In this document: positions 7,293 through 32,534 of the stretch, piece after piece | How the letters are laid out: each line of letters starts with the position of its first letter | Position numbering within the stretch: position 1 is the stretch's first letter | NCBI GenBank assembly: GCA_025356475.1 | Contig: JANXSX010000095.1 | Coordinates: 1 to 35,887 of the forward strand | Source of the DNA: Isosphaeraceae bacterium | Lineage (GTDB): Bacteria > Planctomycetota > Planctomycetia > Isosphaerales > Isosphaeraceae | Reading direction: 5' to 3' | Length of the DNA stretch: 35,887 bases | Made by a program: the position numbers and the translations under genes | The notes under the pieces: generated by a model | The model's database searches: none | The model's input: the letters and a program-made list of their open reading frames with translations, nothing else | What the model was told of the DNA's origin: nothing

Positions 7293-8822
7293 TTATGTCG
7301 GTAAACCACTCGCCAAGAGGCGGACCTTGAAGCCGAGCGAACGGCTGAGGGCGACCATCTCACCGTAGATATCGCCATACGCAATAGCGATGTGGTTGCT
7401 CATATAATGGGCCATGATCGTCTCCATCGAACAGCCGAGATCGGCGGCCATGAACGGCCATTGTCGGGTCGTGCCATTCCACCAAGAGTCTCGCACCGAT
7501 TCTGGGAGTGTGACACTCTCACCCCGACCGAGATCCATGACAAGATCGCCCTCACGATCGATCCACGACCGTGCCCAAGTCAGTTTCCCAGGCAAGCTTT
7601 CGCCGGCAAACGTACCGCCAGGGACTGGAAAATAACCGGAAGGCTGGCGGTAACTGTGAGTTCCCTTCAGGCTCGTCACATCATGGTTGAAGGCGTAGGC
7701 ACCGCAGCTTCCCGAGTTGAGTAAGACCCAAAGCCAACGGCCATCGTGCTTCGCCCCCCAACGGACGTCATGGAACATGACCGCCCCAGGAAGACCCTTC
7801 GCTTCCAGAAGCCGTTTCATCAGTTCCATTGGAACGAGATTCCCTTGGTCGGCCTCGGTGCTGGTGATCAGCGAGTGGCCATTCCCTTCGGGACGAGCAT
7901 GCGAATTGAGCAACCCCTCGCCGAAGTCGCTGGGCGGAAGTAGTTTCAAGAGCCCAAGCTGATACTGCCAACCCACACAGTCGGCCTGAAACTCGTCGAC
8001 CAGGTCGAGAACGGTGAGATACGACCGGAGTTGTTCGCGAGTCGATTCCGCGCTGAAGTCCTCAGCGTCGGCTTCTCCCCAATGGAAGGTCACACCGCGA
8101 TCGACCACAAATTGGAAGGCATCGTCGACCCGATTCTGGTCAATCGCTCTAACCCGTTCTACGAGCCAGGCTTGATCGACTTTATGCTCGCTGAAGCCAA
8201 TCTTGTAGAGAAGCCGAGGCCCAAAGTACCCGTTGATCATCCCCATCGACGTATCGCCAAGCATCAGTGCAAGGATACGTTTGCGTCGGATTTCATCGAG
8301 AACGCCCTGGGCGGTTGCCACGGCATCGACTGAGACCGGTGCTGCGGAGTGAAGCTCGCCCGTGCCATAGGCAATTTTTCCGGTGGTACACCACTCGTCG
8401 AGCCGCTCCATGAATGTCGAATCCGCCGTCCAGTCTTCACCATCCGTCCAGATTCGTGACGAAGCCCGCCCCACGCTTTCGAGCGAGGCACCCGTATTCA
8501 GCAATGCCACGAGCCCTGGCCATTGGCCTGAGAAGTTCGACGCAAGCAGAAGCGGGTTGTCCTTGCCCACGGTTCCGTCCACCGTGTGCGGCGCATACGC
8601 CCAGTGGACATAGAGCCCGATCATCGGGTCGTCGATCGGCCCGAGCTTGCGGATCGATTCGTCTGGTTTGGTCAGGTAGCCCTCGACCAGATACGGGGTC
8701 CGACCGAGTTTCTTGAGCGCCGAGGTAAGCTGCTCGGTCGCTCTGCCGGAGGTTGGCAGGGCCCATGCGTTGGGCTTGGCTCGATAGTCACCTGGCCAGA
8801 AGATCGCCACCTTCTTCATCAT
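7293..8822 (-). CDS. L-fucose/L-arabinose isomerase-fold protein
   Basis: This protein of about 509 residues starts at one of two adjacent ATGs (8822 or 8819) beginning MMKKVAIFWPGDY. It resembles the FucI/AraA ketol-isomerase superfamily, which interconverts aldoses and ketoses with Mn2+. Predicted metal ligands are visible: Glu in STEADQGN (about 323), Asp in MFHDVRWG (about 352) and His in MSNHIAIAYGD (about 477). These correspond to FucI Glu337, Asp361 and His528 by motif. No signal peptide is present, so it is cytosolic. No fucose kinase, aldolase or transporter lies nearby, so the sugar is unknown. An isomerase on a non-standard sugar is the best guess. Confidence 0.75.
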   Translation of the reverse strand: MMKKVAIFWPGDYRAKPNAWALPTSGRATEQLTSALKKLGRTPYLVEGYLTKPDESIRKLGPIDDPMIGLYVHWAYAPHTVDGTVGKDNPLLLASNFSGQWPGLVALLNTGASLESVGRASSRIWTDGEDWTADSTFMERLDEWCTTGKIAYGTGELHSAAPVSVDAVATAQGVLDEIRRKRILALMLGDTSMGMINGYFGPRLLYKIGFSEHKVDQAWLVERVRAIDQNRVDDAFQFVVDRGVTFHWGEADAEDFSAESTREQLRSYLTVLDLVDEFQADCVGWQYQLGLLKLLPPSDFGEGLLNSHARPEGNGHSLITSTEADQGNLVPMELMKRLLEAKGLPGAVMFHDVRWGAKHDGRWLWVLLNSGSCGAYAFNHDVTSLKGTHSYRQPSGYFPVPGGTFAGESLPGKLTWARSWIDREGDLVMDLGRGESVTLPESVRDSWWNGTTRQWPFMAADLGCSMETIMAHYMSNHIAIAYGDIYGEMVALSRSLGFKVRLLASGLPT

Positions 8823-9076
8823 CGCCCAGCCCCCGAATCCTATCGCCTCGCTTCCGGATACTCTGGGAATCATGCCAGAACTGCTCCCTCAAGGCCAGAC
8901 CTGGGAAAACTCCGCTCGACCGGTCGTCACAAACCTGGTTTGATACTTCCTACTTGCGGAGTGCCCCCCCAGGCTGGTTGAATCGCCCATCCCAATCGTG
9001 TTTGGCCGACCTTATACTCACGAACTAGCTGGATCAGCAGGGCGTAGGGTCGATTCCATCATGAGGAGGAAAAGGA

Positions 9077-9121
9077 ATGCGGCGGAAAGGCGGGTTCTGT
9101 AGTGAGCGAGGAACGTCGTGA
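9077..9121 (+). CDS. Possible 14-codon leader ORF overlapping the CphA-like start
   Basis: An ATG at 9077 sits six bases after the strong SD GAGGAGG (9064-9070) and opens a 14-codon frame, MRRKGGFCSERGTS. Its TGA (9119-9121) overlaps the GTG start of the next gene (9118) in a GTGA arrangement. A second mini-frame, ATG 9061 to TAG 9100, runs through the same purine-rich segment and carries four AGG and one CGG codons. The overlap suggests translational coupling or attenuation. Nothing shows that it is translated. Confidence 0.35.
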   Translation: MRRKGGFCSERGTS

Positions 9122-10980
9122 TTCTACTGGAGACGCGAGTTCTGCTCGGGCCGAATCGATGGGCTCCGGTTCCCGTCCTCGAATCTCGGGTCGATTGTCG
9201 AGAATGGGCTCAGAGCGAACTGGACCAGGCGTCTCCCTTTCGGCAACGTTGGCGCGAGTGGATTCCAGTCTTTGCGACGCTCGTTGGCCAAACCTCACCC
9301 CTGGCAAAAGGGTTCGTTGGGTCTCCACCCCACCTCCTTCCACAGCTTGAGCAAGCACTCGCCAGTTCTGCCAACCTTGCCGAGATCCTCGAACTTTGCA
9401 CTCGGCTCCTCCAGTCGCTGGCAGGGGTAGGAGCTCAGTTCGGCGAAACACGTCAAACCGAAGTTGCTCATATTTATCTGGTCGCAGTCGAATCCGAAGA
9501 GCAACAGTTCGACCGTGCTTGCCTGAAGACGGCGCGTGATCTGTGTCTCTCCGCCGCACACGAAGAGCCCTTTGACCTGATGTGTGTCGTTCGCGACCTC
9601 ATCACGCTGGCCGATGACGTTCGCCTGGGACCAAGTAGTCTCGCCATCGTTCGGGCGGCGATGGCACGAGGCATCCCCGCGATGAGGCTCAATCGCGGCA
9701 GCTTGGTCCAGCTCGGCGAGGGGTGCCACCAGAGGCGGGTCTGGACAGCGGAGACTGATGCCACTAGCGCAATCGCTGAGAGCATCGCGCAAGATAAGGA
9801 CCTGACCAAACGTCTATTACAGGCCGTCGGTGTGCCGGTCCCACGCGGTCGCCCGGTCCTCGACGCGGAAGATGCCTGGCAAGCCGCAACCGAAGTGGGA
9901 CTGCCTATTACGGTCAAACCTCGTCGCGCCAATCATGCCCGAGGGATCTCACTCGACTTGTACACGCGGGAAGAAACTCTCAGTGCCTTTGACTGGGCCG
10001 TGGAAGATGGCGAGAATACCGGTGTTCTGGTCGAGCAGTACATCCCGGGGAGTCCCCATCGACTCCTCGTCGTGGGTGGTCAACTCATTGCCGCAGCCAG
10101 TGGTGAACCGGAGTACGTGGTCGGAGATGGCCAGCTCACGATCGCTGAACTCGTTGAGCAACTGAACAGCGACCCACTTCGAGGTGAAAATTATGCGGAC
10201 CGTCTGAGTCTAGTCGCGCTCGATGCTGCGGCCCTGATGGAACTTCGCCGTCAGAGTTTTGAGCCGGAGTCGATCCCTCCCGATGGGGTCCGGATCTTGA
10301 TCCAACGCGTTGGAGATCTCACAAGCGATTGCACAGCGAATGTCCACCCAACGACCGTCGCACAAGCAGTTCTGGCCGCCAAGGTCGTCGGTTTGGACGT
10401 CGCGGGCATCGATCTTATCGCCGAGGACATTCGCCGCCCCCTCAATGAACAAAGGGGGGCGATCCTCGAAGTTAATGCTGGCCCATCGTTGGGAATGCAT
10501 GTCGCCCCATTGCATGGCACACCTCAACCGGTGGGTGAGGCGATCATCAACCAACTGTTCCCGTCCAACTCAAACGGCAGGGTGCTAACAATCATCGTGA
10601 CGGGCGGGGGAGATCGACCTTCGGTCACGAGGCGGATTGCCGAGACACTCCGGGAGGTTGGGCATCAAGTCGGCTGGGCCTCATCCAGCGGAATCTATTT
10701 TAACGAAATCAAAATTTCTGATGGATCTGAGTCTGATGGCGAGAACCTCTGGGCCCTCCGGCTCCACCCTCGGATTGAGGTCATGATCTGCGAGAGCCGA
10801 CCGGATCAGGTGTTGAACTCCGGCCTCGGTTGTCCTCACGTCGATATTGCCGTCGTCACTTCCTTGCCAATCCCGGACGACGGTCGGCTGCTTGAGGAAA
10901 TTCAGGACCCCACAATCTTGGGGACACTCGCCATTGTGGCAGCCGTACCCCCCGAAGGCATTGTCGTGTTCTGGGCCTGA
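9118..10980 (+). CDS. CphA2-like cyanophycin synthetase (ATP-grasp ligase with degraded Mur-ligase domain)
   Basis: This is a 620-residue protein with a GTG start preceded by GAGGAA; its first residues (ILLETRVLLGPNRW) match the CphA N-terminus. Domains are: CphA N-domain 1-~220; ATP-grasp ~222-482 (KDLTKRLLQAVGVPVPRGR; YIPGSPHRLLVVGGQLIAAA; ILEVNAGPSLGMH, keeping Glu451 and Asn453); and a shortened Mur-ligase-like domain ~487-620. Canonical CphA1 is near 870-900 residues and has GTNGKTT there; this protein has TGGGDRPSV at 495-503, so the second ATP site is lost. That matches CphA2, which polymerises beta-aspartyl-arginine dipeptides using only the ATP-grasp site. The usual DGNQGRG and NLSTGG loops are altered (RANHARG, DLTSDC), so substrate may differ. 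No cphA1 or cyanophycinase lies nearby. Confidence 0.82.
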   Translation: MILLETRVLLGPNRWAPVPVLESRVDCREWAQSELDQASPFRQRWREWIPVFATLVGQTSPLAKGFVGSPPHLLPQLEQALASSANLAEILELCTRLLQSLAGVGAQFGETRQTEVAHIYLVAVESEEQQFDRACLKTARDLCLSAAHEEPFDLMCVVRDLITLADDVRLGPSSLAIVRAAMARGIPAMRLNRGSLVQLGEGCHQRRVWTAETDATSAIAESIAQDKDLTKRLLQAVGVPVPRGRPVLDAEDAWQAATEVGLPITVKPRRANHARGISLDLYTREETLSAFDWAVEDGENTGVLVEQYIPGSPHRLLVVGGQLIAAASGEPEYVVGDGQLTIAELVEQLNSDPLRGENYADRLSLVALDAAALMELRRQSFEPESIPPDGVRILIQRVGDLTSDCTANVHPTTVAQAVLAAKVVGLDVAGIDLIAEDIRRPLNEQRGAILEVNAGPSLGMHVAPLHGTPQPVGEAIINQLFPSNSNGRVLTIIVTGGGDRPSVTRRIAETLREVGHQVGWASSSGIYFNEIKISDGSESDGENLWALRLHPRIEVMICESRPDQVLNSGLGCPHVDIAVVTSLPIPDDGRLLEEIQDPTILGTLAIVAAVPPEGIVVFWA

Positions 10981-10989
10981 CGAGTCGAT

Positions 10990-11403
10990 TCATTGCCCGT
11001 CGCTTTGCGATGCTCGTTTCTTATCAACGCGACGCTTGAAGCGATCGACGTCGATCACTCGTCGGCGGTGAAGGCCTTTCGAGACCAGTTCCTGTTCGTC
11101 GTGCGCTTCAACTTGGAACGTGACGACGGGGCCATCGACCATGATCACCCGCGCTCTGCAAACGACTGTCATGCCTTGAGGAACAGGTGCAATGTGCTCG
11201 ACCTCAACGTAGGTGCCTACACTGCGTTCGTTCTCGGTCAGACAGGGGGCGATCGCATTCCGTGCCGCGTATTCCAGATAGGCAACCAACCATGGAGTTG
11301 CCAGAACCGCCGGCATCCGGGCATCTGTGAACACAATGCTGTTGCTTGCGTCCACCAAATGATGCTCTTCCGCGACCATTCCTACCCGAATTGGCTGCCT
11401 CAT
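10990..11403 (-). CDS. FlK-type hotdog thioesterase
   Basis: This is a 137-residue single hotdog domain of the fluoroacetyl-CoA thioesterase (FlK)-like family, cytosolic acyl-CoA hydrolases. Candidate catalytic residues Thr36 (LATPW), Glu44 (AYLEYAA) and His70 (VEHIAPVP) all lie exactly six positions before FlK Thr42, Glu50 and His76, a strong alignment sign. VIMVDGPVVTFQVEAHDE and ISKG-like LVSKGLHRRRVID complete the fold, with a basic tail. Most FlK-like proteins act on unknown short acyl-CoAs, so fluoroacetate resistance should not be assumed. The gene is convergent with the CphA-like gene (9-base gap) and divergent from the ferredoxin gene. Confidence 0.87.
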   Translation of the reverse strand: MRQPIRVGMVAEEHHLVDASNSIVFTDARMPAVLATPWLVAYLEYAARNAIAPCLTENERSVGTYVEVEHIAPVPQGMTVVCRARVIMVDGPVVTFQVEAHDEQELVSKGLHRRRVIDVDRFKRRVDKKRASQSDGQ

Positions 11404-11630
11404 CCGTTCGACTCTCCAATTTTGCGATTAGCACTGCTTGACCAAAAGATGCTGCTTAACAATAATCATTATTATCTCCAAGTTCGAGTGGAGCCTTTTC
11501 TGCTCGGCGTCTGGGGGAAGTCGATTCCTTCAAATCTGCTTGTCGGCTAAGATACGGTTGATAGGCTTGGCGTCGATACGAATGAGACGTGAGCTGGCGC
11601 TTCAAGACCACACTCGCGAGACTGTAGATT

Positions 11631-11996
11631 ATGGCCACGATCGTCGGCAAGCCTCGCAAGGTTGTTCCCCGAATTCTCGCGGTGATCCACGCGGATGGCT
11701 GCACAGGATGTGAAGCCTGCGTTGAGGTTTGCCCCGTCGACTGCATCTACAAAGTTCCTGGCGAAGAGCACCCCAGCCTACAGACTTGGTGTGATATTGA
11801 TCTCGATCGTTGCATTGGATGCAAGCATTGTGCCCAGGTTTGCCCCTGGGATGCGATCGATATGGTGGATACGTTGGAAGTTGCCCAATACGTGGCGATC
11901 AAGGGGGGCCCACCCTCGTACGTTGAGAAGCACTGGGATGACCTGGTCGACTCGGCCTATCGCAACGCTGAGACACTCGCGGCTAAGAAGAAGTAA
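11631..11996 (+). CDS. Dicluster 4Fe-4S ferredoxin
   Basis: This is a 121-residue electron carrier. Two CxxCxxCxxxCP motifs lie at Cys24/27/30/34 and Cys61/64/67/71, each with the trailing Pro, so two 4Fe-4S clusters are expected. An N-terminal ~20 residues and a C-terminal extension of ~45 residues (charged, ending AAKKK) exceed the classical 55-residue clostridial form. No signal peptide is present, so it is cytosolic. No SD sequence is obvious before the ATG; the message could be leaderless. The redox partner is not identifiable. The cytochrome gene 123 bases downstream encodes an exported protein, so a direct partnership is unlikely. Confidence 0.93.
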   Translation: MATIVGKPRKVVPRILAVIHADGCTGCEACVEVCPVDCIYKVPGEEHPSLQTWCDIDLDRCIGCKHCAQVCPWDAIDMVDTLEVAQYVAIKGGPPSYVEKHWDDLVDSAYRNAETLAAKKK

Positions 11997-12119
11997 AGAG
12001 ACGCCGGTTTCGTTGGTTCTTGATGATTTTGACACCGGCTCGCCCACCGGTTGTTCCGTATTGCGCTCATTCAGAGCCGCCCGCCCTCGGCGTACTCCCT
12101 CCTCTGGAGATTCGACTCG

Positions 12120-13505
12120 ATGCGATTAAAATTCATGCTCGGGCTCTTCGTTCTCGGTGTCATCGGCTGCTCAGAAGCTCAGAAGGAATCGACACCGGTC
12201 GTGGCCGCACCTCAGGGGAGCAATGTACAGAAGGAGGACGGTCAACCAGGGGTGACGGCTCCTGTGCCGAAGTCCGACTCTGGAAAACTTGTCGAAGTCG
12301 TCAAGGAAGATGTGAAGGATCGACCTGCGATCGATGAATCCTTCCTCTGGCTGACCTCGGACTCCAAACTGATCAAAGATGAGCCGCTCGAAGTCGTCGC
12401 CCCCAACGGCCTCCCGGTCCTTGTCGCACGCGTTCCTGCCTCGAATCCGATGACCAAAGCCAAGGTTGAACTCGGAAAACAGCTTTACTTTGACCAACGA
12501 GTCTCCAAGAACGGGACTGTGAGTTGTGCCACCTGCCACAATCCCTCAAAGGGCTGGACCGACAATGAGCCGACTTCGGCTGGGATCAATGGCCAACGTG
12601 GTGGTCGAAACGCACCTACCGTTTTGAATACCGCGTATCAAGCGGTCCAGTTCTGGGATGGACGCGCTCCTTCGCTCGAAGCACAGTGCCAGGGACCACC
12701 CCAAAATGCAGTTGAAATGGGTGACCAAAGCCATCAGCAGATCATCGAACGACTTCGGACGATCCCCGGGTATGTCGAGCAATTCAAGATCGTATTCGGT
12801 ACGGCCGTGACCCTGGACGGAATGGCAAAGGCGATCGCGTCGTTCGAGCGGACCGCCCTCTCGGGTAACTCGCCCTACGACAAATACAACAAGGCCAACA
12901 GCGATGACGCCCCCCAGGACTTGAAGGCCCTCTCTGAGAGTGCCAAGCGCGGCCTCGTCCTCTTTGGCCTGACCCTTAACCCCGACGACGAATTCCGGAC
13001 GGATGTGGTCCGTAAGAAGGCCAATTGCACATCCTGCCATGTCGGTTTCAACTTCACGGATGACAAGTACCACAACCTTGGCGTCGGATTCGACGCGGCC
13101 TCAGGCAAGTTTGCGGACCTCGGGCGATTTGTGATCTCGCCCGTGGGTGCCAAGGACCCCGCCGAACTCGGCGCGTTCAAGACTCCAACGCTTCGAGACA
13201 TCGTCCGCACGTTCCCTTACATGCATGACGGTACGCAGAAAACACTCGAGGATGTTATCAATCACTACGACAAGGGGGGCAATGCCAACCCCTCCCTCGA
13301 TAAGGATATCGTCGCCCTGAAGCTCACCGAGCAAGAGAAGAAGGATCTCGTCGAGTTCATGAAGGCACTCACGGGTGAGGAGATCAAGGTCACTCTCCCC
13401 AAACTCCCACCTGGTAAGGACGGCACGGCTCCCGATCCTGCCGAGGCCCTCAAGCTCCCCACGAAGAAGGTCGCGGCCTCCGACGTGCTCCACCTCACTC
13501 GCTGA
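12120..13505 (+). CDS. Di-haem cytochrome c peroxidase / MauG-family lipoprotein
   Basis: The ATG at 12120 (GGAGA upstream) gives 461 residues with a lipoprotein signal peptide MRLKFMLGLFVLGVIGC, lipobox Cys17. The ORF extends upstream to 12051, but that would hide the signal. Haem-binding CxxCH motifs are at 136-140 (CATCH) and 303-307 (CTSCH), the spacing of bacterial cytochrome c peroxidases (CCP/MauG). KTPTLRDIVRTFPYMHDG is the typical CCP C-terminal signature. The likely role is periplasmic, membrane-anchored reduction of H2O2 or a MauG-like oxidation. A Lys/Pro-rich linker follows the lipid anchor. A strong terminator follows. Confidence 0.93.
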   Translation: MRLKFMLGLFVLGVIGCSEAQKESTPVVAAPQGSNVQKEDGQPGVTAPVPKSDSGKLVEVVKEDVKDRPAIDESFLWLTSDSKLIKDEPLEVVAPNGLPVLVARVPASNPMTKAKVELGKQLYFDQRVSKNGTVSCATCHNPSKGWTDNEPTSAGINGQRGGRNAPTVLNTAYQAVQFWDGRAPSLEAQCQGPPQNAVEMGDQSHQQIIERLRTIPGYVEQFKIVFGTAVTLDGMAKAIASFERTALSGNSPYDKYNKANSDDAPQDLKALSESAKRGLVLFGLTLNPDDEFRTDVVRKKANCTSCHVGFNFTDDKYHNLGVGFDAASGKFADLGRFVISPVGAKDPAELGAFKTPTLRDIVRTFPYMHDGTQKTLEDVINHYDKGGNANPSLDKDIVALKLTEQEKKDLVEFMKALTGEEIKVTLPKLPPGKDGTAPDPAEALKLPTKKVAASDVLHLTR

Positions 13506-22380: not shown

Positions 22381-23790
22381 TTGCCGGCTTCCCTCGACAC
22401 GTTGCTTGAACCTCATCCCCGGGTCCGGGTCCTAAGAGAGGGCCTGCCCTCGACATCGGGGCAATGTGTCCTCTACTGGATGCAGCGCACCCAGCGGGGA
22501 CACGATAACGCAGCTCTCAATCTGGCGATCGCGATCGGGAACGCACTGGATTTACCGGTTCTCACCGGGTTTGGCCTCACTGATCAGTTCCCAGGGAGCC
22601 AGATTCGACAGAAACGCTTCGTAGTCGAAGGTCTGGTGGATGCTTCAACGGATCTGAAAGCTAAGGGAGTACCCCTCGTCGTACGAATCGGCCCACCCGA
22701 CCAAGTTGCGTTGAAGCTTGCCAACGAGTCGAACGCCGCTTTCGTGGTTGGTGATGAAAACCCGCTCCATTTTGCTCAAACCTGGCAGGAACGACTTGTA
22801 AATGAGTTGGCCGTTCCTTACCGGGTCGTCGATGCCGATGTTGTTGTACCCAGCTCGATTTTCCCCAAAGAGGAGTTTGCCGCTCGAACCTTAAGACCCA
22901 AGCTGCATAGGGTTCTCGCAGATTTTCTCAAGCCTATCCCCAATCCGACCGCACGAGTTGCATGGAAGGAAGGCACTTGTCCGGTGGGTGAGCTCATTGA
23001 ACTCGACCACCTGCTGAGCAAACTGAAGCTCGGAGGGGCGGGGGCCGTTCCGACCTACAAGGGGGGGCGGGTCGAAGCGGGCAAGCGGCTCAAGCTTTTC
23101 CTCGGAGAACGGATCGGTAAGTACGCAAACGATCGCAATGAACCAACACCTTATATGACAAGCGAACTCTCCGCTCACCTCCACTTCGGGCACATCAACC
23201 CCCTAACTATTGCGCTCGCCGTGCAATCCGCATCCGCACCCGACGAGGATATCGCGGCATATATTGAAGAGATGATCGTTCGGCGCGAACTCTCGATCAA
23301 TTATGTAGCCCGGAATCCCAGGTATGACACGCTGTTGGGTTGCCCCGACTGGGCTCTGAAAACGCTGGCCAAGCACGCTAGCGACCCTCGCCCTTTTCTC
23401 TATGACGAGCGACAATTGGTTGCCGCAGAAACTCACGACCCACTCTGGAACGCGGCGCAGAAGGAGATGATGATCACGGGCAGGATGCACAACTATTTGA
23501 GGATGTATTGGGCGAAGAAGATCCTCGAATGGTCACCCGACGCCGAGACGGCCTTCAACGTCGCTCTCTTGCTCAATGATCGGTATGAGATGGACGGGCG
23601 CGACCCAAACGGTTACACCGGAGTGGCCTGGGCGATCGGCGCTAAGCATGACAGACCGTGGGGCGAACGTCCGATTTTTGGCACAGTGCGATTCATGAGC
23701 TATCAGAGCACGCGAAAGAAATTCGATTCCGACGGATACATTGCCAGAGTCCGATCCCTGGAGCAGGGGCGTTTGTTTGGTGACGTTTAA
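22381..23790 (+). CDS. Class II CPD photolyase
   Basis: This 469-residue protein starts at TTG with GGAG eight bases upstream; in-frame stops exclude an earlier ATG. It is a class II deoxyribodipyrimidine photolyase: VLYWMQRTQRGHDNAALNLA (antenna/Rossmann domain), then FAD-domain signatures NYVARNPRYDTLLGCPDWA, MHNYLRMYWAKKILEW and DPNGYTGVAWAIGAKHDR, and the IFGTVRFMSY end. It uses light to split cyclobutane pyrimidine dimers. The fold differs from the FeS photolyase at 1023. An overlapping downstream membrane-protein gene suggests one transcription unit. Class II members occur in plants, animals, archaea and some bacteria including Planctomycetes. Confidence 0.93.
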   Translation: MPASLDTLLEPHPRVRVLREGLPSTSGQCVLYWMQRTQRGHDNAALNLAIAIGNALDLPVLTGFGLTDQFPGSQIRQKRFVVEGLVDASTDLKAKGVPLVVRIGPPDQVALKLANESNAAFVVGDENPLHFAQTWQERLVNELAVPYRVVDADVVVPSSIFPKEEFAARTLRPKLHRVLADFLKPIPNPTARVAWKEGTCPVGELIELDHLLSKLKLGGAGAVPTYKGGRVEAGKRLKLFLGERIGKYANDRNEPTPYMTSELSAHLHFGHINPLTIALAVQSASAPDEDIAAYIEEMIVRRELSINYVARNPRYDTLLGCPDWALKTLAKHASDPRPFLYDERQLVAAETHDPLWNAAQKEMMITGRMHNYLRMYWAKKILEWSPDAETAFNVALLLNDRYEMDGRDPNGYTGVAWAIGAKHDRPWGERPIFGTVRFMSYQSTRKKFDSDGYIARVRSLEQGRLFGDV

Positions 23791-25829: not shown

Positions 25830-27497
25830 TCAAGGCTTGACTGGTTCGGCGACTCTGGGCTCATTCTCCATCGTGGGGATCGGCGAACCAGGCTTGGCTT
25901 CAACCGGTGTGTCCTCACGATACATCGGCAAATACCGATAGTAGACTTCGAGTGTCAGGATCGACATCGAGGTGACATAAAGACGTCCGCCGACATCTCC
26001 CCACTTGTCCGGCTGAGGCTCAACGGGCGACCAACTCCCCCGGTCGCAGCCCTCCCCCTTGATTTGAATCCCCACCAACCCGTCACGCACCTTGACGTTC
26101 CAAAGGTCCCAAAGCGGACCTCGCATATTATGCAACAACTGGGTAGCATAATACCAATAGTAGATATTCCGATCGGTCGATTCGTTGAGGTCGCTCGCCA
26201 CCAGAGCAACTCCCTTGATTAACGACGGGTGTTTCTTCTGCCAGCCGAGAATCTGTCGCGACAGGAGGGCTTCGGCAGTCATGATCGGCGATGAGCGACG
26301 CCCAGGCATGTACGAATAGGTAACTTTGTTCGGATCCGCGCTCGCATAATCCAAGTATTGGACACATCGGGCCAGTGCCTTCTTGGGGACATTCAGACCG
26401 GCGAGTTTGCCGCAACGCAATGCCATGATCTGCCAGCCGAAGACGGACGTATCACCAGCCTCATCGGCAAAGTATCGCCATCCACCATCGCTCGCCCCTT
26501 GCATCCTGACAATCCAGTGAATCGCACGTTGGGCAGGAATGCCTAGTTTTTCATCGTTGGATAACCCATAGGCCTCGCAGAGAGCCATGGTCGCAATCGC
26601 GTGGCTGTAAAAGCGGGTTGTTCGCCCACCACCGACCCAGAGTTCCCCATCCTTGCCTTGCCGGTCAGTCAACCACTGAAGTCCACGCTTCAAGGTTGAT
26701 TGATACTTGCCATCCTTATTATGCAGATGTCCCGCACCGAGCAACGGGAGCAAAGCCAAACCTGTCGCTGCGGTATCGCTTTCCATCATCGTACTATCGT
26801 CAATCGGGCAGCCGGCACCAGCGCAGGCGGGATGATAGTTGAGACTCCAGCCACCATCCCCCTTCTGATGTCGTGCCAACCACTCTAGCCCGACCAGAAC
26901 CGCTGCCTCCGACTTGACGGTCCCCCCTTCACGTCGGACAAGGGCAGCTTTCGTCGGTCCACTCCGACCCGAGAACGGAGCGGTCAGATCGTCCGCAATC
27001 TCACGGCCCGAGATCGCGACTGGTTTCAGCGCGCCGGTGTCGAGAATCGCAAAGTTCCCCCGAGGCAGCCCGCCGACCCCAACTGCATTCGGAGGCAGAT
27101 TCGGGCTGGCGAGTTCTGGGGCATAGCGAACATTTTCAGGCAACTTCGGTTGGCTGATCGTCAGTTCGCTGGAGTCCGCAGGTTCCAACGACAGCGAAGG
27201 CGTCTGATCGGATGAATCGTTGGTAAATGGGTCGCCGGCCCGATCCGCCGGAAACAGCGAGGTTAGATCCTCGGTAAGTTGGCCGAAACGACCGCCTATG
27301 ATGTCGGAGGGCTCTGTTCTCTCAGAATTGAGCACGATCAAGGCCAGAATCAGCAAGAGGCTTCCGTGCAAGGCGAGGCTCACGCCCCAGGTCGGAAGCC
27401 ACTTATCCCACCCAGGGGCTCTTCGGTCGAGGGAGCGCACCACTCGCCGACCGCCGACCCGTATTCGACGACGCCATGGAGCCCTGCTCGATCGCAT
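25830..27497 (-). CDS. Membrane-anchored prenyltransferase/squalene-oxidase-repeat protein
   Basis: This 555-residue protein has a basic N-terminus, a single transmembrane helix (about 36-57, LALHGSLLLILALIVLN), a low-complexity linker to ~200, then an alpha/alpha-barrel of the squalene cyclase/prenyltransferase repeat type: VLVGLEWLARHQKGDGGWS, LKRGLQWLTDRQGKDG, AIHWIVRMQGASDGGWRYF. The squalene-hopene cyclase DxDD motif is not seen, so a cyclase activity is not supported. Such anchored repeat proteins are abundant in Planctomycetes and of unknown role, possibly protein or lipid binding in the periplasm. The gene is monocistronic; the esterase gene ends 208 bases upstream of it on the same strand. 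Confidence 0.83.
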   Translation of the reverse strand: MRSSRAPWRRRIRVGGRRVVRSLDRRAPGWDKWLPTWGVSLALHGSLLLILALIVLNSERTEPSDIIGGRFGQLTEDLTSLFPADRAGDPFTNDSSDQTPSLSLEPADSSELTISQPKLPENVRYAPELASPNLPPNAVGVGGLPRGNFAILDTGALKPVAISGREIADDLTAPFSGRSGPTKAALVRREGGTVKSEAAVLVGLEWLARHQKGDGGWSLNYHPACAGAGCPIDDSTMMESDTAATGLALLPLLGAGHLHNKDGKYQSTLKRGLQWLTDRQGKDGELWVGGGRTTRFYSHAIATMALCEAYGLSNDEKLGIPAQRAIHWIVRMQGASDGGWRYFADEAGDTSVFGWQIMALRCGKLAGLNVPKKALARCVQYLDYASADPNKVTYSYMPGRRSSPIMTAEALLSRQILGWQKKHPSLIKGVALVASDLNESTDRNIYYWYYATQLLHNMRGPLWDLWNVKVRDGLVGIQIKGEGCDRGSWSPVEPQPDKWGDVGGRLYVTSMSILTLEVYYRYLPMYREDTPVEAKPGSPIPTMENEPRVAEPVKP

Positions 27498-30335: not shown

Positions 30336-32534
30336 ATGTCAACGAAGTCGTCCGTACGGCAATCCGCCGTCGCCGCGCTGACCGCCGCCTCGGCTGCGTC
30401 CCACGGACAGCCTATCGGATCAGCGAAGCCCAGATCACTCCGCGAGCTCTTTGGACTCAATGTCTTCTCCGACGACGTCATGCGCGCACGTCTTCCCGAA
30501 GGAACATACAAAGCCCTTCAGAAGACCCTCAAAAAGGGTGCCCCGCTCGACCCAACCGTCGCCGATGTCGTCGCGACCGCGATGAAGGAATGGGCGATGG
30601 AGAAGGGTGCAACACACTACACCCACTGGTTCCAGCCTCTCACCGGTTTGACCGCCGAAAAGCATGACTCTTTCCTCGTCCCCGACGAGGGTGGTGGTGC
30701 CCTGACTGAGTTTTCCGGTAAAGAACTTGTCCGAGGCGAGCCCGACGCGTCAAGCTTCCCCTCGGGTGGCATCCGCGCCACCTTCGAGGCCCGTGGTTAC
30801 ACCGCGTGGGATCCGACCAGCCCGGCCTTCGTTCTCGAGGCTCCCGGCGGCACCACTCTTTGTATTCCGACCGCCTTCTGTAGCTGGACCGGTGAGGCTC
30901 TCGACAAGAAGACCCCACTGCTCCGTTCGATGGAGGCACTCTCCAAGCAGGCCCTCCGCATCCTTAAGCTTTTCGGCTCCAGCGCCCAGAAGGTCTTCAC
31001 GACCGCTGGCCCCGAGCAGGAATACTTCCTGATCGACAAAAATTTCTACTACGCCCGCCCCGACCTCTTGAACGCGGGCCGAACACTCTTCGGTGCCAAG
31101 CCCCCCAAGGGTCAGGAACTCGAAGACCACTACTTCGGCGCGATCCCTGACCGCGTGCTCGCCTTCATGCTCGAATCCGAGACCGAACTCTATAAGCTCG
31201 GGGTTCCGGTCAAGACGCGGCACAACGAAGTTGCACCGGCGCAGTACGAACTCGCCCCGATCTTCGAGAACGCCAACGTCGCGACCGACCACAACATGCT
31301 TGTCATGGAGACCATGAAGCGCGTGGCCGATCGCCATGGCCTTCAACTCCTGCTCCATGAGAAGCCGTTCGCAGGGGTCAATGGCTCCGGCAAGCACGTC
31401 AACTGGTCGATGGCCGACGACCAAGGCAATAACCTTCTCAAGCCCGGCGATACTCCCCACGAGAACGCCCAGTTCTTGATCTTCCTGGCCGCTGTGATCT
31501 CCGCCGTTGCAAAGCATGGCGACCTCCTCCGCGTGGCGATCGCTCACGCGGGTAATGATCACCGACTGGGTGCAAACGAAGCTCCTCCGGCCATCATCTC
31601 GATCTTCCTGGGCGACATGCTGCAGGACATCGTCGAGCAGATCGAGGCTGGTGGCGCGAAGAGCACCAAGGCCGGCGGCACGATGACCGTTGGCGTGACC
31701 GCCCTGCCGACCCTTCCTCGCGACGCGGGCGACCGGAACCGTACGAGTCCGTTTGCCTTCACCGGCAACAAGTTCGAGTTCCGCGCTGTCGGTTCAAGCC
31801 AGTCAATCGCCGGCCCCAACGTCGTGCTCAACACGATCGTTTGCGAAGCCGTTGATGAGATCGCTACGGTTCTCGAAACTGCCGTCGCTGCCGGTAAGGA
31901 TCTGAATACCGAGATCCAGGCGTTGTTGCCCAAGTTGATCAAAGCTTCCAAGCATGTGATCTTCAATGGTGACGGCTACTCCGACGAGTGGCACGCTGAG
32001 GCGGCCAAGCGTGGTCTGCCCAACAAACGGAACACGATTGACAGCTTGCCTGACCTGATCACACCGAAATCGATCGCCCTCTTCGGCAAGTACGGCGTTC
32101 TCAGCGAGCGAGAATTGCACTCGCGCTATGAGATCTTGCTCGAATCGTACAAGAAGACGATCAACATCGAGAGCCAACTGACAGCTCAGATTGCTCGTCG
32201 TCAGATCTTGCCCGCCGCGCTTCGCTACCAGGCCGAGCTCGCCACCTCGATCGGTGCGCTCAAGTCCGCTGGTGTCATGATCCCCCCGTCGCAGGCTGAA
32301 CTGCTTGCGGAGCTGGTCTCGACCATCACCGATCTCCAGTCGAAGACCGCCGTCCTCATCAAGGCGAGCGACGAGCATTCCGATGGCGACAGCTTGGCCC
32401 ACGCCACGTATTCCCGAGATATCGTCATCCCCGCGATGAACGCCGTCCGAGTCATCGGCGATAAGCTCGAAGGGCTCGTCCCCGACGACCTCTGGCCGCT
32501 ACCGACGTATCAGGAAATGCTGTTCATCAAGTAA
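30336..32534 (+). CDS. glnN: Glutamine synthetase type III
   Basis: This is a 732-residue protein, the size of GS III (about 700-730), far longer than GS I (~470). It forms glutamine from glutamate, ammonium and ATP in the cytosol. Signatures include [55 protein letters not shown] and [20 protein letters not shown], all conserved in the type III family. An N-terminal Ala/Ser-rich stretch precedes the catalytic part; the C-terminal ~150 residues form the GS III-specific extension. GGAG precedes the ATG. A strong terminator follows, so it is transcribed alone. Gene neighbours amt and PII are 3 kb away. Confidence 0.96.

Follow-up and report, generated by a model that had tools for sequence, protein, structure and literature searches.

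A 620-residue CphA-like protein of an Isosphaeraceae bacterium (Planctomycetota; assembly GCA_025356475.1) is best explained as an orphan and most stripped member of a lineage, here called A, that derives from CphA1, the synthetase of the nitrogen-storage polymer cyanophycin, and as a putative single-site ligase with an acceptor other than aspartate; we give this reading a probability of about 0.5. The gene resides in a window of 35,887 nucleotides, by which we mean the whole stretch of DNA analyzed (contig JANXSX010000095.1, positions 1 to 35,887). Score, tree and signature residues concur in placing the protein in the separate lineage A, an assignment we regard as nearly certain. The state of its active sites suggests that it is probably a live single-site ligase and, with slightly less confidence, that its acceptor is not aspartate. 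The features on which the argument is built are the following.

9118..10980, + strand: CphA-like protein assigned to the A lineage, 620 aa, orphan gene (ORF, family models, trees)
9108..9113, + strand: Shine-Dalgarno-like GAGGAA 5' of the GTG start (sequence)
9118..9597, + strand: N domain, residues 1-160; protease motif C59/H79/E82/H83 of CphA1 reads S/E/E/L and is lost
9610..10569, + strand: G domain, ATP-grasp, residues 165-484, the conserved part
9916..9945, + strand: KPRRANHARG, equivalent of K261 and B-loop with the equivalent of catalytic H267, both kept
10060..10062, + strand: R315, corresponding to essential R309 of CphA1, kept
10102..10104, + strand: G329 at the R323 position of CphA1, Arg lost
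10306..10329, + strand: RVGDLTSD, aspartate-recognition loop, five residues shorter than RATANLSTGGIAID of SuCphA1
10468..10494, + strand: EVNAGPSLG, Mg-binding E450 and N452 kept, R458 replaced by G
10570..10977, + strand: Mur-ligase core remnant, residues 485-620, without lid and C-terminal module
10603..10623, + strand: GGGDRPS replacing the Mur P-loop GTNGKTT

The reading frame (9118-10980, forward strand) is intact from its GTG start and free of internal stops, its codon-position GC content (0.70/0.46/0.62) is strongly periodic, and the other frames downstream of it contain no evident Mur motif. An earlier note on this DNA had described a protein of 620 residues with one ATP site that retained ATP-grasp and had lost the Mur P-loop, and this description holds: the ATP-grasp catalytic set is complete (K227, K267, N272, H273, R315, D432, E451 and N453, that is K220, K261, N266, H267, R309, D431, E450 and N452 in CphA1 numbering), the Mur domain is truncated, and GGGDRPS at residues 496-502 takes the place of GTNGKTT, located at 495-501 in SuCphA1. 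Neither this P-loop nor the DH and DYxHN features of the Mur site are present.

The roles of G- and M-site residues in CphA1 have been worked out in detail (PMC9427784), as has the function of the N site, the protease motif (PMC9262961). K261 is the alpha-phosphate lysine and H267 the catalytic histidine of the B-loop, while R323 binds the beta-carboxylate and R458 the alpha-carboxylate of the incoming aspartate, which is also held by N394 and S396 on a large loop comprising residues 389-399; alanine at N394, R323 or R458 impairs TeCphA1 (PMC9427784), and H267A was the exchange chosen to inactivate the G site of SuCphA1 (PMC9262961). With roles taken over from CphA1, the residues kept in the Isosphaeraceae protein are those predicted to handle ATP, Mg and the acyl phosphate. 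Judged by the alignment, none of the residues with which CphA1 is known to hold incoming aspartate is left: in the RVGDLTSD loop, N394 is changed to D and the S396-G-G stretch is missing, in addition to the exchanges at positions 323 and 458. The alteration of both loops pointed out in the earlier note is thus borne out in so far as NLSTGG is shortened by five residues and DGNHGRG reads RRANHARG; the catalytic histidine in the latter, H267, is retained. A different ligation, also proposed there, appears plausible because it is the acceptor side of the pocket that is altered.

The NCBIfam model for cyanophycin synthetase, NF010623, matches the protein with 614 bits (E 3.5e-184; residues 1-587 aligned with positions 1-578 of the 871 in the model), and TIGR02068 yields 454 bits, so that it stays below both curated cut-offs for CphA1 (877 and 850, respectively). 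The NF010623 score falls under 877 because half of the Mur ligase, the second, is absent; a full-length A protein exceeds both cut-offs (1165 and 946). In a comparison with solved structures, bit scores reach 280-327 for CphA1 chains and 158-168 for two CphA2 chains (7ta5 and 8fxh, recognized as CphA2 via a Foldseek fold search). An AF2 model of the protein (pLDDT 81, pTM 0.73; loops 214-225, 357-361 and 460-466 poor) confirms the fold, with a Foldseek E value of 4e-49 versus CphA1. Fold comparison of this model does not separate the two families (Z 24.2 for CphA1, 23.4 for CphA2), and its predicted loops are too inaccurate to name the acceptor.

All members of lineage A share a signature consisting of R323G, a five-residue deletion in the NLSTGG loop and the loss of R458, and the Isosphaeraceae protein carries all three, R458 being replaced. 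The lineage is one clade with a support of 100/98 when the loop and columns 323 and 458 are left out, and it is found on one side of a branch with a support of 85 in a larger tree; our protein falls inside the clade with the signature columns left out. Named genomes were scanned with an alignment of short A proteins, and the following counts are among the matches listed. Loci of Betaproteobacteria, Myxococcota and Planctomycetia contain two adjacent cphA genes, and most other A proteins are encoded by the first gene of such tandem pairs, which we take to be the gene named CphA'. Among these listed matches, the gene order is A followed by B in 68/68 pairs, which share descent and hence do not represent 68 independent events. 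The G and M domains of B are canonical, and both ligase sites are kept. Again among the matches listed, a complete N-domain CHEH, the protease site that generates primers, is present in 68/68 paired A, 0/68 paired B and 65/73 stand-alone B proteins, and a complete DYxHN Mur motif in 135/141 B and 0/110 A proteins, many of the latter ending before the position in question. The N-site remnants in B vary (EVR, AKCE, QDAS, CHEL, PHEK), as expected for decay following relaxed constraint. This reciprocal loss of CHEH and ligase sites suggests that A-B pairs form a two-subunit cyanophycin synthetase. The Isosphaeraceae protein lacks two traits typical of paired A, the adjacent downstream B and the N-site CHEH.

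The tandem pairs sit at loci L128-L207 and L110-L120. In 66/68 paired B among the matches listed, catalytic His267 is exchanged for Gln (e.g. L136, 10642-13224), and stand-alone B proteins have either H or Q at position 267; DGNQGRG, used as the reference loop in the earlier note, is therefore the form that belongs to paired B. Some further loci feature other arrangements. In L102 of genome G353, two adjacent CphA genes (7671-9839 and 9846-12206, reverse strand) divide one CphA1 between them, the first encoding complete N and G sites and no Mur P-loop, the second a protein with a deleted G active site and a complete Mur site (GTNGKTT, DH, DYHN). L109 encodes overlapping tandem CphA-like proteins of 648 and 650 residues (8317-10257 and 10197-12122, forward strand) without P-loop and N site, with the loop IAHTETGATS and with H267 replaced by W/Y; the pair is classed as a second, separate truncated type within the window's family. 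Other versions of the aspartate loop (NTHLWDGG with R458K; NSHLKDGG) occur in full-length CphA-like proteins encoded in L044 (1471-4197), L049 (598-3303), L050 (640-3249) and L116 (7223-9814), which may be further substrate variants.

A search of planctomycetes covering 392 genomes from the phylum, 45 from the order and 397 from the class returned more than 100 CphA-like proteins. In a tree of the ATP-grasp region, from which the loop and columns 323 and 458 had been removed, the Isosphaeraceae protein is part of an 18-row clade (SH-aLRT 100) of planctomycete proteins, in agreement with the planctomycete version proposed in the earlier note. All its members are short, none has the P-loop lysine and none the N site, the branch having lost the protease site of the N domain as well as the Mur site. 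K220, K261, N266, H267, R309, D431, E450 and N452 are kept in 18/18 proteins; position 323 is occupied by G and position 394 by D, likewise in 18/18, and R458 has been exchanged. Mean pairwise identity in the branch amounts to 0.63 for the G domain, 0.33 for N and 0.32 for M, giving an M/G identity ratio of 0.42 versus 0.78-1.13 in other groups. As the G domain is far more conserved than N and M, selection acts on the ATP-grasp domain. A sequencing truncation, which the earlier note had allowed for, or a frameshift was rejected, given the lack of an evident Mur motif in the other downstream frames and the state shared by the 18 planctomycete proteins of the branch, which also speaks against chance.

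The source genome (5.9 Mb, 99.98% complete) was inspected for cphA1, cyanophycinase and isoaspartyl dipeptidase, which the earlier note had named as genes to look for. It contains one canonical full-length CphA1 with three intact sites on another contig, close to a cyanophycin-associated ABC transporter (NF052233) and a DUF1854 protein (NF052234), as well as two cyanophycinase-family matches barely above cut-off and one Asparaginase_2/IaaA-type protein, an isoaspartyl-peptidase homologue; IadA is not found above cut-off in this genome. The gene studied here is unlinked to that for CphA1 (contigs C193 and C143) and shares no operon with a cyanophycin gene. An operon role of the neighboring fucose isomerase-like, DUF1570, ferredoxin, MauG, YfhO and radical SAM genes was considered and dismissed as no link emerged, and conserved-neighbor clustering returned DUF1559 (pilin-like) as the sole family in common with the window. 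The window also harbors two photolyase-type genes, a type III glutamine synthetase and a squalene-hopene-cyclase-like protein (1023-2561, 22381-23790, 30336-32534 and 25830-27497). Other short A genes are found near genes for the cyanophycin ABC transporter and/or DUF1854 in L084, L098 and L104, and a B-type CphA1, whole or partial, is present in 17/18 other short-A genomes checked, the exception being 91% complete. A search for DUF1854 in plasmids gave one weak match, and the literature search on DUF1854 in connection with cyanophycin brought up nothing relevant.

In the reaction we envisage, a cyanophycin-type peptide, which may be supplied by the genome's own CphA1, would be activated at its C-terminal carboxylate as an acyl phosphate at the expense of one ATP and then joined to an amine acceptor other than free aspartate. 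A non-aspartate acceptor is proposed because the aspartate contacts are absent. The likeliest candidate would be beta-Asp-Arg or short (beta-Asp-Arg)n, although naming beta-Asp-Arg as acceptor is tentative; the outcome would be a recycling reaction resembling that of CphA2 and reached by an independent route. The wider scheme, in which A (protease kept, aspartate pocket lost) and B (ligases kept, protease lost) make up a two-subunit enzyme and the planctomycete branch of A has turned, independently of CphA2, into a single-site ligase that acts on its own and on a new acceptor, is conceivable at somewhat less than even odds.

The main alternative, which we consider unlikely yet the most serious, is that the protein partners the genome's CphA1 as a subunit. 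The G domains of CphA1 assemble into dimers (PMC9427784), and pairing between the G domains of the two proteins could tune or anchor polymerization, with ATP binding being structural or regulatory and no ligation taking place. Such a role fits the gene order, with A immediately upstream of B in 68/68 pairs among the matches listed, the reciprocal N-site state in the same listed matches (complete in 68/68 A versus 0/68 B), as befits a two-subunit enzyme, and the presence of B in 17/18 short-A genomes. It is at odds with the separate contigs of the two genes and with the invariance of the acyl-phosphate residues H267 and R309 in the short branch, which goes beyond the needs of a scaffold. A live ATP-grasp ligase could also cap or branch cyanophycin or make an unrelated peptide, with a diamine or a basic amino acid as acceptor. 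None of the residues that clamp the carboxylates of aspartate (R323, N394 and R458) survives, and position 394 carries an acidic residue in 18/18 proteins, a state that might suit a cationic acceptor. On the other hand, no genes for partners in making another product lie near the gene, and we rate this option as rather improbable.

Much less probable still is a true CphA2, orthologous to the cyanobacterial beta-Asp-Arg ligase, as implied by the label CphA2-type in the earlier note. CphA2 is defined by the missing Mur P-loop and Mur lid and by one ATP site (PMC9427784), and the Cx19HxxEH motif of the N domain is absent from it (PMC9262961). The Isosphaeraceae protein agrees in each of these points, with ATP-grasp kept, and its AF2 model resembles 7ta5 and CphA1 to nearly the same degree (Z 23.4 and 24.2, respectively). 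The NISAGG acceptor loop and R323 of CphA2 are nevertheless absent from it: 7ta5 retains R323 (ALERRPSYV) and the full loop (ANISAGGVSIN) and has Lys in place of H267 and Phe in place of R458, so that the pockets are alike at R458 only. Bit scores are 158-168 as opposed to 327 with CphA1. In the tree, CphA2, represented by one 235-residue segment of 7ta5 read from the structure-search alignment, falls outside the A clade; forcing the segment together with short A is rejected (p-AU 0.034), while forcing it with all A is not (p-AU 0.125). Scores, pocket and tree together speak against CphA2 orthology and the CphA2-type label, and since CphA2 lies outside the A clade, the loss of Mur and N sites in both is most likely convergent. 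A decaying gene without function, suggested by the loss of two of three ancestral active sites and by the orphan position, is hardly credible in view of the open frame, its codon periodicity and the same state across the 18-protein clade, in which the G domain is conserved at 63% and the catalytic residues do not vary.

A single-site ligase with a non-aspartate acceptor would be a natural case of a sole surviving ATP-grasp site combined with a rebuilt acceptor pocket, and would be useful for learning what determines the choice of acceptor in cyanophycin-type ligases. In R. eutropha, cyanophycin has not been detected despite two synthetase homologues (PMC11362209), and a recognizable cyanophycinase occurs in only about 3% of beta-proteobacterial CphA1 genomes, which has been called unanticipated (PMC10206079). 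That A and B have lost active sites in a strictly reciprocal manner leads to a specific hypothesis relevant to both puzzles. In the literature searched, mostly without subscription papers, we found no description of this reciprocal loss or of the aspartate-pocket signature and nothing relevant on a truncated CphA or orphan branch in planctomycetes.

Among characterized systems, CphA1 (7lg5, 7wac) is the best-scoring family with solved structures (327 bits) and is collinear with our protein up to residue 587; CphA1 has three active sites, whereas in the Isosphaeraceae protein solely the ATP-grasp site is left and its aspartate pocket is altered. With CphA2 (7ta5 from Gloeothece, 8fxh from Stanieria) it has in common a single ATP-grasp site and the loss of Mur P-loop and lid, N site and R458; CphA2 differs in keeping R323 and the NISAGG loop, in having Lys for His267 and in occupying a separate branch of the tree. 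Paired A proteins from Achromobacter, Cupriavidus, Nitrosomonas, Herbaspirillum, Myxococcota and Planctomycetia form one clade with it and share R323G, the five-residue loop deletion, the loss of R458, the ATP-grasp catalytic residues and the lack of a complete DYxHN (0/110 A among the matches listed). The Isosphaeraceae protein departs from them in being shorter (620 aa), in having lost the N site and in standing without an adjacent B.
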